A stretch of 64,000 nt of DNA from Planctomycetaceae bacterium (GTDB taxonomy: Bacteria > Planctomycetota > Planctomycetia > Planctomycetales > Planctomycetaceae). This document shows, piece by piece, positions 42,440 to 47,284 of this stretch. Position numbers and translations under genes: made by a program. Under the pieces are notes generated by a model. The model made no database searches, had not been told where the DNA came from, and was given only the letters and a program-made list of their open reading frames with translations. Position 1 is the first letter of the stretch. Every line of letters starts with the position of its first letter. The stretch spans positions 124,001 through 188,000 of the forward strand of contig JAKFUG010000014.1 of NCBI GenBank assembly GCA_021732785.1, in the 5' to 3' direction.

Positions 42440-43258
42440 ATGAACGGTTCGAACAGTTTGCCCGCCAGTCCGGACGTCGCTCGTCCTGCCTGTGGTGTGC
42501 GTCCGGTCTTTCTGTGGACCGGCAGCCTCTTGTGGGGCGTCGTGCTGGTGGGTCTCGTCGTGATGTGGCAGAACCAGCGGCAACGTGATGCCGCCGCATC
42601 GTCCGACGAACGGAGCGATTCCCGTCTCGAATCCCCGGACAAAGACACGAAAGTCGTCACCATTCCCGTCAACACGGCGACCGACGGGCAGGTGATCAAT
42701 CTCTCCGATCTGATGGGGCAATCGAAACCCGCGGCCGATGTGCCACTGTGGGACCCGAACGGGATTGAAGATTTCTCGTTCACCAACTGCGATGGCCGCA
42801 CGGTCACCAAGGCCGACCTGCTGGGTAAACCGTGGGCAATCTGTTTCGTCTTCACGAAGTGCCTCGGCCCGTGTCCCATCGTGACGCGGCAACTGCGGAC
42901 ATTGCAGGACCGGTTGAAAGACGCCGATGTCCGGTTGGTGACGCTCACCGTCGATCCCATCCGTGACACCCCCGAAGCCCTGCTCGAATACGCCAAGATT
43001 AACGGGGCCGACCTCGGCAAGTGGTACTTCCTCACCGGTGATCAAACCGCAATTTACGGCCTGATCCACCGCGGTTTCCGCATGCCCGTCCAGGAAGTCA
43101 CCGGCCCAACACGGCAGGAAGGCTTCGAAATCATCCACTCGACCAACGTGATGCTCGTCGATGCCGAAGGCGTCGTCCGCGCGAAATTCAACGCCGCAAA
43201 AGACGAAGACATGGTGTCGCTCCGCAAAGAACTGTTGAAACTCTCAACCCCCCCGTGA
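42440..43258 (+). CDS. Sco1/SenC-family copper chaperone (thioredoxin fold)
   Basis: 272 aa, membrane-anchored by a helix at about residues 23-43, with an exported thioredoxin-like domain. The copper-binding CxxxC is CLGPC (C141, C145) in CFVFTKCLGPCPIVTRQL, and the partner His is in EIIHSTNVMLVD (about residue 233). LVTLTVDPIRDTPEALLEYA is typical of the family. Sco proteins insert copper into the CuA site of cytochrome c oxidase. Here it may act with the upstream permease. Its TGA overlaps by two bases with the first REP-like unit of the RAYT cassette. Confidence 0.92.
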   Translation: MNGSNSLPASPDVARPACGVRPVFLWTGSLLWGVVLVGLVVMWQNQRQRDAAASSDERSDSRLESPDKDTKVVTIPVNTATDGQVINLSDLMGQSKPAADVPLWDPNGIEDFSFTNCDGRTVTKADLLGKPWAICFVFTKCLGPCPIVTRQLRTLQDRLKDADVRLVTLTVDPIRDTPEALLEYAKINGADLGKWYFLTGDQTAIYGLIHRGFRMPVQEVTGPTRQEGFEIIHSTNVMLVDAEGVVRAKFNAAKDEDMVSLRKELLKLSTPP

Positions 43259-43286
43259 AGCCCAGGGACTGCCGTCCCTGGGAAGT
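43257..43286 (-). repeat. REP-like unit 1 (left end of RAYT cassette)
   Basis: GAAG, then a 9-bp stem CCCAGGGAC/GTCCCTGGG (43261-43269, 43274-43282) with a 4-nt loop TGCC, then AAGT. Abuts the RAYT stop codon at 43287. Its reverse complement is identical over 30 nt to the unit inside leuS (46095-46124). Confidence 0.9.
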
Positions 43287-43808
43287 TTACTTATCAATCA
43301 GCGCCGACCAAACCCACGCCCCCTCATGGATGTGATCAAGAATGTACCGGTAAACATTCTTCTGGTGCGCTCGATCCCGTATCCGCACCACTTTGCCACG
43401 AACGGCCCACAGCTTCCCGCGAAACCCGGAGTCATGCGCCACAAACGTGGCGTGTTTCTTGGCCAATCCCAACGGGATCCGGGCATCGCCGTCATCCAGT
43501 TGCACTTGAAGATGCGCATGCTGGCCGCCACAACTCACGGTGAGAATGTTGCCGCCAAGTTGCTGTAAACGATCTCGTAACGCCGCACCGATGATCGGCC
43601 GGAATACGGAATCAATGACCGCCCCGGCTTGCTTCAAGTCCTGCTGATGTTCGTAGTGGCGGCGCTCGTATTGCCCTTCCGGCGGCGGCGATTTGTAATC
43701 GCCTTCGATGTGCTCGCGGTGATGTCGCGTGCGAAAACCGCGCGGGTCGCCCGGGAGCCAACTGCCGTAGGTGGAGATGATGAGGTGGAACCAGACTCGT
43801 GGAGTCAT
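43287..43808 (-). CDS. REP-associated tyrosine transposase-like (Y1/HUH) protein
   Basis: 173 aa. The HUH metal-binding motif is QHAHLQV (H97, H99). The candidate nucleophile is in NVYRYILDH (Y153 or Y155), close to the C-terminus as in Y1 transposases. The N-terminus TYGSWLPGDPRGFRTRHHREHIEGDY is typical of the stand-alone transposase-like proteins common in planctomycetes. It is single-copy-sized (IS200/IS605-like fold without TnpB). The flanking inverted palindromes make a RAYT role likely: nicking and joining single-stranded DNA at REP hairpins. Some residues of classical IS200 TnpA are not recognisable, so activity is unproven. Confidence 0.85.
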   Translation of the reverse strand: MTPRVWFHLIISTYGSWLPGDPRGFRTRHHREHIEGDYKSPPPEGQYERRHYEHQQDLKQAGAVIDSVFRPIIGAALRDRLQQLGGNILTVSCGGQHAHLQVQLDDGDARIPLGLAKKHATFVAHDSGFRGKLWAVRGKVVRIRDRAHQKNVYRYILDHIHEGAWVWSALIDK

Positions 43809-43827
43809 GTTGATTCTCTTCTCAAAA

Positions 43828-43857
43828 ACTTCCCAGGGACGGCAGTCCCTGGGCGTC
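43828..43857 (+). repeat. REP-like unit 2 (right end of RAYT cassette)
   Basis: Same hairpin as unit 1 in opposite orientation (stem 43832-43840 and 43845-43853, loop GGCA). One of 30 positions differs: the foot reads GACG instead of GAAG on the minus strand. It lies 19 nt upstream of the RAYT start and 2 nt from the leuS stop, so it may serve both as the RAYT leader and the leuS 3' end. Confidence 0.88.
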
Positions 43858-43859
43858 TG

Positions 43860-46800
43860 TCACTTCACGACCATGTTCAGCAACTTTCCTGCAACATACA
43901 CCACTTTCACGACCGTTTTCCCAGACAACTGCTGTGCAATCGCATCAATCGCATTCGCTGCGGCTTCGATGGTCGCTTGATCCGCGTCCTTCGGCACCGT
44001 CACCTTACCGCGGACTTTCCCGTTGATCTGCACCGGGATTTCCATCTCCGCTTCAACTAACAACGCGGGGTCATACGTCGGCCACGGTTCGTATGCCAAT
44101 GTGGTGGTGTGACCCAGCAACTGCCATAACTCTTCGGCGAGGTGCGGGGCGAACGGGCTGAGCAACAGCACGAACGATGACAACACGCTCTTCGGGCGCA
44201 CGTCGTGGCTGGTGAATTCATTCGTGAACTCCATCATCCGACTGATCGCGGTGTTGAACTGCAATCGCTCGATGTCGTCCGTCACCGCTTTGATCGTCTT
44301 GTGCAGCACGCGCAACTGTCCCGGCGTCGGCGGCACGTCCTGCACGGCGTCAGCGAGGCGAATGTCATCGGCCCGGTCATCTGCCACGAGTCGCCACACG
44401 CGGCCGAGGAACCGGAAGATGCCGTCGACTCCCGCCATGCTCCACGGCTTGGTCGCTTCGAGCGGCCCCATGAACATCTCGTACAGCCGCAAAGAATCGG
44501 CCCCGTATTCCTTCACGACCGTGTCCGGATTGATCACGTTGCCGCGCGATTTGGACATTTTGTAGGAGCGGGCGTCAACTTGGATCGAAGGATTATCCTT
44601 AAGGACCCAGGTATCACCACTTTTTTCGACTTGGGATGCATCAATTGGAGCGTACCTAGCCGCCGTATAAACGCTCGCGATTTCCACCGTAGGAACCGGG
44701 ACCACCGATGTTGTGCTCCATTTCAAATCCTTATCTTTAATGGAGAGCCATTCGTCGGTCAGTGGATGTTTCAATCCATTGAACTCCATCTCGCCGAGGA
44801 TCATCCCTTGATTGACCAACCGCGCGAATGGTTCGGGACACGTCACATGCCCGCGGTCGAAGAGGACTTTGTGCCAGAACCGCGCGTACAAGAGGTGCAG
44901 CACCGCGTGCTCGGCCCCGCCGATGTAGAGGTCCACCGGCAACCAGTATTTTTCCTTCGCCGGATCGATGAAGCGGTCGCTGTTCTTGTTGTCGCAGAAC
45001 CGCAAGTAGTACCAGCAACTGCCGGCCCATTGCGGCATGCTGTTCGTCTCGCGCTTCAGCTTCGTGCCGTCCGCCGCGGTGGCGTAGAGCCAATCCGCCG
45101 GGGCCTTCGACAACAACGGCTCGGGCGTGCCGGTCGGCTGGAAATCTTCCATCTCCGGCAACCGCACGGGCAAATCGGCATCGGTCACCGCGCGGACCAT
45201 TCCCGTCGGCTCGCCATGACTATCGAGTTCATGCCAGATCGGAAACGGCTCACCCCAGTACCGCTGCCGTGAGAAGAGCCAGTCGCGCAGGCGATAATTC
45301 ACCGCCTGCTTGCCGAGGCCTTGGGTGGCGAGATCGGCGGTGATCTTCGTTTTGAACTCGGCAGTGGGGAGACCGGTGTAGGGACCGGAGTTGATGGCCG
45401 TACCATACTCCCCGAAGGCCTTCTTGAAGCAACCCGGCTCGATCCTATAAGACTGACGGAGTTGCACGGCATCGTCTTCGGAAACCCGGTCCCCGTGAAG
45501 GATTCGCCGCTCGATTTCGATGTACGAAAGGAAGTCATCCTGCATGATCTCGCAACTGCTGACGACATCCTTAACGGCATTCGCGAGCTTTCCTGGATCA
45601 TCGCCCACGCTGTGCCAGCTATGAAATGGCCCCAACATGTCGACGTTCGCGATTAACCAGGCATCGGGAGGCGCCACGACGGGAGTGACGTTGATTCCCA
45701 TCGCATTGGCGAACTCCCAGTCGCGTTCATCATGCGCGGGGACGGCCATGATCGCGCCGGTGCCGTAGCTGATGAGGACATAATCGGCGATCCAGACGGG
45801 GACGCGTTCGCCGTTGACGGGGTTGATCGCATAGCCGCCGGTGAAAACGCCGCTCTTTTCTTTTGCGAGATCGGTGCGGTCGAGATCGCTCTTGAGCGAC
45901 GCTTTCTGACGGTATTCATCGACCGCGGCGCGTTGGGCTGGCGTGGTGATGGTGTCGACGAGCGGATGTTCCGGCGCGAGGACCATGTAGGTCACGCCGA
46001 ACAATGTGTCCGGGCGGGTGGTGTAGACGCGGATGACGTTGGGTTCGGGGGTGGTGGGGAAACCGGATTTGGTCCGCACGCTTTTCCATTCATCACTTCC
46101 CAGGGACGGCAGTCCCTGGGCTTCCGGCTGGCTCTTGACTCTCGACTCTTGACTCTCGACTAAGAAATCCACCTCTGCACCAACGCTCTTGCCGATCCAG
46201 TTCTTCTGCAACGCCTTGATCGATTCCGACCAGTTGAGTGGTTCCAATTCGTCGATGAGCCGTTCGGCGTATGCGGTGATACGGAGCATCCATTGTTTCA
46301 ACCGGCGGCGTTCGACAGGATGGTTACCGCGATCGCTTTTGCCGTCGGCGGTGACTTCTTCATTCGCGAGGACAGTCCCGAGAGCCGGGCACCAGTTCAC
46401 CGGGGCTTCGTGGATGTAGGCGAGCCGGTTCGCGTCCTGATAGTTCCGGACGGCGATGTCCCCCTGCGAACGCACGTCCGCGGGGATCGGCAACTCGGCG
46501 ATCGGTCTTCCCTTGCCGACGCGCCGCTCACCGTCCGGGCCGGTCCACGGGTAGTTCGGGTCGTACCACGTGTCGAAGAGCTGGAGAAAAATCCATTGCG
46601 TCCAGCGGACATATTCCGGGTCGGTGGTCGCGAGTTCGCGGCTCCAGTCGTAACTGAAGCCGAGCATTTTCAACTGGCGTTTGAACGTGTCGATGTTTTT
46701 GAGCGTGGTGACCCGCGGATGGGTGCCGGTCTTGATGGCGTGCTGTTCCGCCGGGAGTCCGAAGGCGTCCCAGCCCATCGGATGGAGCACGTTCTTGCCG

Positions 46801-47006
46801 CGCATGCGATTGAACCGGCAGACGATGTCCGTCGCCGTGTACCCCTCGGGGTGACCGACGTGCAACCCGTCCCCCGACGGATACGGGAACATATCGAGGA
46901 CGTACAGCTTCGGTTTGGACGGGTCGAACTCGACGCGGAACGTCTGGTTCTTCTCCCAAAACTGTTGCCACTTGGGTTCAATCCGTTGAGCGTCGTATCG
47001 AGGCAT
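43860..47006 (-). CDS. leuS: Leucyl-tRNA synthetase, unusually long
   Basis: 1048-aa class I synthetase charging tRNA-Leu. HIGH-type HVGH (residues 49-52, in [15 protein letters not shown]), CP1 editing-domain motifs TTRPDTLFG and [37 protein letters not shown] (YKMSKSRGN, about residue 815), and the C-terminal anticodon-binding domain are all present. The frame is uninterrupted, so it is probably functional. It is about 190 aa longer than E. coli LeuRS. Extra material is visible at about 282-312 (translated REP-like unit plus a tandem repeat), about 449-529 between [10 protein letters not shown] and [14 protein letters not shown], and about 750-812 before KMSKS. The last two look lower in GC than their surroundings. 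Confidence 0.95.
46095..46124 (+). repeat. REP-like unit 3 inside the leuS coding sequence
   Basis: Identical over 30 nt to the reverse complement of unit 1 (stem 46099-46107 and 46112-46120, loop GGCA). On the leuS (minus) strand the GAAG foot is at 46124-46121. In the leuS frame it is read as [11 protein letters not shown]-type residues within the start of the CP1 editing domain. Confidence 0.92.
46134..46161. repeat. Two tandem 14-bp repeats inside leuS
   Basis: CTTGACTCTCGACT occurs twice back to back (46134-46147, 46148-46161), 9 nt from REP-like unit 3. It is translated in leuS as [11 protein letters not shown]. Such GAGTC-rich direct repeats look like non-coding intergenic sequence that was carried into the gene together with the palindrome. 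Confidence 0.85.
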
Positions 47007-47221: not shown

Positions 47222-47284
47222 AGCCCGAAGCGCAAGCGCCGGGTTTTTTGATCGAAAATTCACCCGGCGCTTGCGCTTCGGGCT
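47222..47284. repeat. Perfect 23-bp inverted repeat upstream of the PLP enzyme gene
   Basis: Arms 47222-47244 and 47262-47284 are exact reverse complements (core CCCGAAGCGCAAGCGCCGGG), with a 17-nt AT-rich loop that includes TTTTTGATCGAAAATTC. It lies in the divergent gap between leuS and the D-threonine-aldolase-like gene, ending 15 nt before that gene's ATG. The arm carries CGCAAGCG, as do the right arms at 1821-1828 and 24509-24516. Confidence 0.85.

Follow-up and report, generated by a model that had tools for sequence, protein, structure and literature searches.

Among Y1 transposases, class 1 has Gln and class 2 has Asn four positions after the catalytic tyrosine (Y+4), and class 3 TnpA-Y1, accompanied by high-copy hairpins, is found in Planctomycetes, Acidobacteria and Proteobacteria (PMC6006769). 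Cleavage by the TnpA-REP proteins of E. coli and Stenotrophomonas occurs at CT, next to the hairpin, and depends on the foot (PMC8266576). In the REPIN literature, single REPs are regarded as immobile remnants of doublets (PMC8049555). Intragenic REPs have been described elsewhere in uvrA and in genes for tRNA synthetases, and the paper on CGTC-tagged REPs did not find these units on both sides of any transposase (PMC3733652). The element described here lies in a 64,000-nt stretch of a planctomycete genome (the window). It is REPtron-like, and its Y1/HUH transposase belongs to a separate planctomycete lineage. The features of the locus, in window coordinates, are as follows.

42440..43258, + strand: sco, a SCO1/SenC-family gene, the neighbour on the left
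43257..43288, + strand: left REP-like unit, with foot GAAG, 9-bp stem CCCAGGGAC/GTCCCTGGG, loop TGCC and tail AAGTTT
43287..43808, - strand: RAYT-like Y1/HUH transposase gene, 173 aa, with HAH at 97-99, Y155 and H159
43826..43857, - strand: right REP-like unit, with foot GACG, and stem, loop and tail as in the left unit
43860..47006, - strand: leuS (leucyl-tRNA synthetase), the neighbour on the right
46093..46124, - strand: third unit of the family, in-frame within leuS, encoding AQGLPSLG

The gap between sco and leuS is filled by the transposase gene and the two framing units. The inverted units that the preliminary description had placed around the 173-aa HUH/Y1 reading frame (30 nt, 29/30) are real, and the arms were measured here as 32 nt each with 31 of 32 positions identical (97% complementary). 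The sole differing base is the third of the foot (GAAG in the left unit, GACG in the right). That description was also accurate at both borders: the left unit shares GA with the sco stop codon, because TGA occupies 43256-43258 and the unit starts at 43257, and the right unit lies 2 nt from the leuS stop (unit end 43857, stop from 43860). The left unit and the transposase stop overlap by 2 nt, and the right unit starts 17 nt upstream of the transposase ATG. Each framing unit forms a perfect 9-bp stem with a 4-nt loop, and single-stranded DNA folding gave -10.7 kcal/mol for each (z of -4.8 and -4.1). The core pattern CCCAGGGANNNNNNTCCCTGGG occurs three times in the window versus 0.02 expected. 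The two framing copies had been listed correctly before, and the third copy, at 46099-46120 and in-frame inside leuS, had been overlooked.

Another palindrome (CCCGAAGCGCAAGCGCCGGG) forms an inverted doublet upstream of leuS, at 47224-47282, with starts 39 nt apart. The same palindrome type frames a class-3-like gene beside an ileS-like gene (L002, G000:C22).

With up to two mismatches allowed, the core was found at 44 sites in the 6.69-Mb genome versus none for a reversed-pattern control. A looser pattern gave 206 sites versus 20 in the control, and a covariance model search at E 0.1 returned at least 150 matches. Distinct sites gathered from the pattern and model lists number at least 117, so the possibility raised earlier that only the copies at this locus exist does not hold. 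Over 93% of these sites are solitary units. Pairs of neighbours less than 1 kb apart numbered four among 117 sites, one of them being the pair around the transposase gene, and inverted doublets (the REPIN arrangement) are not the usual form of the units among these 117 sites.

Almost all copies inspected in context (46/47) have GA[AC]G immediately 5' of the stem on one or both strands, and the foot is confined to one strand in 44 of those 46. In an alignment of 49 copies, which were selected by the presence of the GA[AC]G foot, 99.5% of the stem cells are paired, a value reached by 0 of 500 shuffles, and stem pair 9, adjoining the loop, is CG, UA or AU. When the pattern was extended by AAG of the foot, a scan of 170 family genomes gave matches in the three that belong to the genus and in hardly any other. 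The hairpin units are a genuine repeat family, restricted to one genus among these genomes.

The window protein matched no Pfam family at E <=1, PF01797 (Y1_Tnp) included, and no match was returned by NCBIfam, by PHROGs or by tblastn against plasmid and phage collections; an Rfam search of window positions 43000-46400 was also without a match. Y1_Tnp PF01797 was matched by 7 of the 16 sequences of a wider alignment. An AF2 model based on 15 sequences reached a pLDDT of 84, with residues 18-40 below 50. In a Foldseek search with this model, the structure of E. coli RAYT in complex with a REP hairpin (4er8) ranked first at E 6.7e-5, and ISDra2 and IS200-type TnpAs came next. For this predicted fold, the Z scores to 4er8 and the IS200-type TnpAs were 11.6-12.8, with unrelated rows from 9.2. 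On the evidence of the model, the window protein has the RAYT/IS200 fold.

In the alignment, H97 and H99 are invariant, and Y155 and H159 are nearly invariant. The histidine motif of the window protein is QHAH and its tyrosine motif is YILDH, with His at Y+4; in a neighbouring sub-branch, Y+4 is Gln again. The dN/dS ratio was 0.06-0.12 between lineage pairs with finite dS, with dS near saturation in most, and 0.06 in the best pair (dS 0.59). Judged by these ratios, the transposase is under purifying selection. Besides one full copy of the transposase, the genome has just two distant homologues (27-28% identical). A quick tree of 56 rows, calculated without bootstrap, assigns the window protein to a 28-row lineage (SH-aLRT 99), which adjoins a class-3-like group labelled by motifs and stands apart from the class 1/2 type proteins of the genome.

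The locus has the broad-sense features of a REPtron, namely the HUH and Tyr residues, inverted framing palindromes, and many palindromes with a single transposase gene. It resembles the class 2 RAYT/TnpA-REP systems with GTAG REPs in its Y1/HUH fold (4er8), in the tetranucleotide foot 5' of the hairpin, in the position of a chromosomal gene between inverted hairpins, in the genome-wide repeats, and in the copies inside uvrA and tRNA synthetase genes (PMC3733652). However, class 2 has Y---NP, GTAG and REPIN doublets, whereas Y---H, GA[AC]G and solitary units are found here: the window protein reads YILDH in place of Y---NP, and GAAG or GACG stands in place of GTAG in 46/47 copies. The likeness to class 3 TnpA-Y1 includes the extended N-terminal conservation, the planctomycete distribution, and hairpins that frame genes and may be repeated across the genome. 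In the quick tree, the window protein nevertheless falls in the separate lineage (SH-aLRT 99) beside the motif-labelled class-3-like group. Neither NHVH nor Y----Q is present in it (QHAH and Y---H instead), and the class 3 foot CnGA is replaced by GA[AC]G in the window family.

The CGTC-tagged REPs (PMC3733652) share 8-9-bp stems and short loops with the window units, and GACG reads CGTC on the opposite strand, but their stems start with A/T pairs. Assignment to that family was set aside, as the motif is not CGTC when GACG is the 5' foot. The IS200/IS605 elements (IS608, ISDra2) are alike in fold, in HUH and Tyr, and in a guide-like tetranucleotide 5' of the hairpin; they differ in the metal-ligand position, which is Gln there and His in the window protein. 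Several full-length copies, a feature of IS200/IS605, were not found in the genome, where one full copy accompanies high-copy solitary hairpins.

The element is called REPtron-like because its relatives too are mostly framed by inverted repeats, which differ between genera, and the lineage is counted as new because it has no GTAG foot and no REPIN doublets. The preliminary reading as a RAYT/REPtron was therefore sound for a RAYT-like Y1 transposase with genome-wide palindromes, and failed for the enteric and pseudomonad kind, since the foot is GA[AC]G and the lineage is another. The selfish-repeat system as such is known, but this branch of it has scarcely been described. What is new here is the separate lineage, another foot and solitary spreading units, although an earlier description outside the open-licence literature searched is possible.

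A flanking inverted pair of at least 20 nt was detected at 22 of 29 related loci versus 0 of 157 control windows, and in 35 of 812 cross-locus pairs used as a control for inverted flanks. The same test found no such pair at 5 of the 29 related genes, including L061, which lies amid units outside the windows tested. These repeats are mostly perfect palindromes, with some imperfect hairpins, and their cores differ by genus. Most related transposase genes are thus framed, usually by palindromes, contrary to the possibility that the palindrome is absent where orthologues occur. Genus g24 and genomes G043, G069, G087 and G149 contain many copies of a second core, CCCACGGGN6CCCGTGGG. A palindrome family was present in G043, G065, G067 and G069, where no gene of the window type was detected, although assemblies are incomplete and there are other Y1 genes. 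The correspondence between core and gene is therefore suggestive and incomplete. At three related loci (L061, L068 and L071), the C-termini of the transposases are encoded by hairpin units (SPGTAVPG).

In the sister species G007, an orthologue of the transposase (64% identical) likewise occupies the position next to leuS, and the 9 kb read there contains no sco gene. The leuS side is therefore older than the species. The proposed insertion between two convergent stops is not a recent event, given this orthologue, which stands beside leuS without sco.

The leuS unit adds about ten residues that are absent from other genera, and leuS of G007 has a GAT/ATC variant of the stem at the same site. 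At the site of the MetRS unit, a different hairpin pair was found in G007 (L188, metG) and nothing in six other genera. Units are also carried by ValRS, CysRS, two UvrA-type genes, a hydantoinase-like gene and a DNA methyltransferase; these named genes were confirmed by family search or relatives, as the open-frame test for intragenic copies overcalls owing to long chance frames. The copies within coding genes are translated in different frames. The unit-bearing LeuRS (46099-46120), ValRS, MetRS and CysRS (L024, L028, L045) are all class I tRNA synthetases. An excess of units in tRNA synthetases was spotted post hoc and is a lead only.

One subtype is distinguished by TTCCGA at the loop and by the tail TCTCTT. 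It is represented by 45 exact 26-mers in the genome, none of which was found in either of the two sister genomes; one of these is 64% complete. Twenty copies, picked for identical model score, have the whole 32 nt in common, with the same borders and apparently unrelated flanks. Identical units in this genome, their absence from the sisters and the unrelated flanks therefore suggest that single hairpins moved recently in the species. Over 40 copies of this type, a weak lean towards C just upstream and T downstream was observed, which may reflect a target preference. The loop and tail of the recently dispersed subtype are unlike those of both units framing the transposase gene.

This difference bears on the question of which enzyme moves the hairpins. 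A PF01797 search identified nine other Y1 genes in the genome, and one of their products, for example a class 1, 2 or 3 paralogue, could be the driver, with the window gene merely captured between two hairpins; both the number of these genes and the deviating subtype speak for such an origin. However, CCCAGGG palindromes frame only the window gene among the Y1 genes found in the genome, the paralogues with inverted palindromes have other ones, and genes of the window lineage lie repeatedly between inverted repeats in other genera. We therefore consider this explanation unlikely. Six more Y1 genes in this genome (L002, L003, L111, L112, L116 and L117) each have their own inverted repeat pair, and L110 (G000:C10) is a Y1 gene of 147 aa between 58-nt inverted repeats.

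The GC-rich stem followed by a T-rich tail, together with the many intergenic copies, would also suit transcription terminators or protein-binding sites under selection, to which the transposase link would be secondary. Such a role is improbable as the main explanation, given hairpins confined to one genus, 45 identical copies of one subtype with none in the sister genomes, copies within coding genes in different frames, and transposase genes flanked by inverted repeats in other genera. An ordinary IS200/IS605 insertion sequence with the hairpins as its ends would have the same fold and HUH/Tyr catalytic residues, but the supposed ends are present more than 100 times without the gene, which itself exists in one full copy and is kept beside leuS in the sister species. 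This reading appears the least probable and can hardly be maintained.

The locus is probably a separate-lineage REPtron-like element whose Y1 enzyme would bind, cut and disperse GA[AC]G hairpins. That the window protein recognises and moves the hairpins is inferred, as are the cut sites and the function of H159. In the proposed mechanism, the host would keep a single transposase gene copy beside leuS, and the enzyme would bind the single-stranded 32-nt hairpin, composed of the foot GA[AC]G, the 9-bp stem, the 4-nt loop and the T-rich tail. A metal would be held by H97/H99 and probably H159. By analogy with the TnpA-REP proteins of E. coli and Stenotrophomonas, Tyr155 may cut beside the hairpin, guided by the foot, and the single-stranded unit would be joined to other single-stranded sites, by which solitary hairpins would disperse through the genome. 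A simple guide rule, in which A3G4 of the foot pairs with the CT cut site, fits the TCTCTT tail; it was not retained, as no corresponding CG is present in the tails of units with a GACG foot.

There is about an even chance that the single 32-nt hairpin, and not the REPIN doublet, is what moves, driven by a Y1 enzyme with a three-His metal site (HUH plus His at Y+4). The 45 identical, sharp-bordered singles, absent in both sisters, point in the opposite direction to the view of singles as remnants of doublets (PMC8049555), and they make the smallest mobile unit a testable question. Moreover, palindrome and enzyme turn over genus by genus, which provides a natural series on how Y1 enzymes read hairpins.
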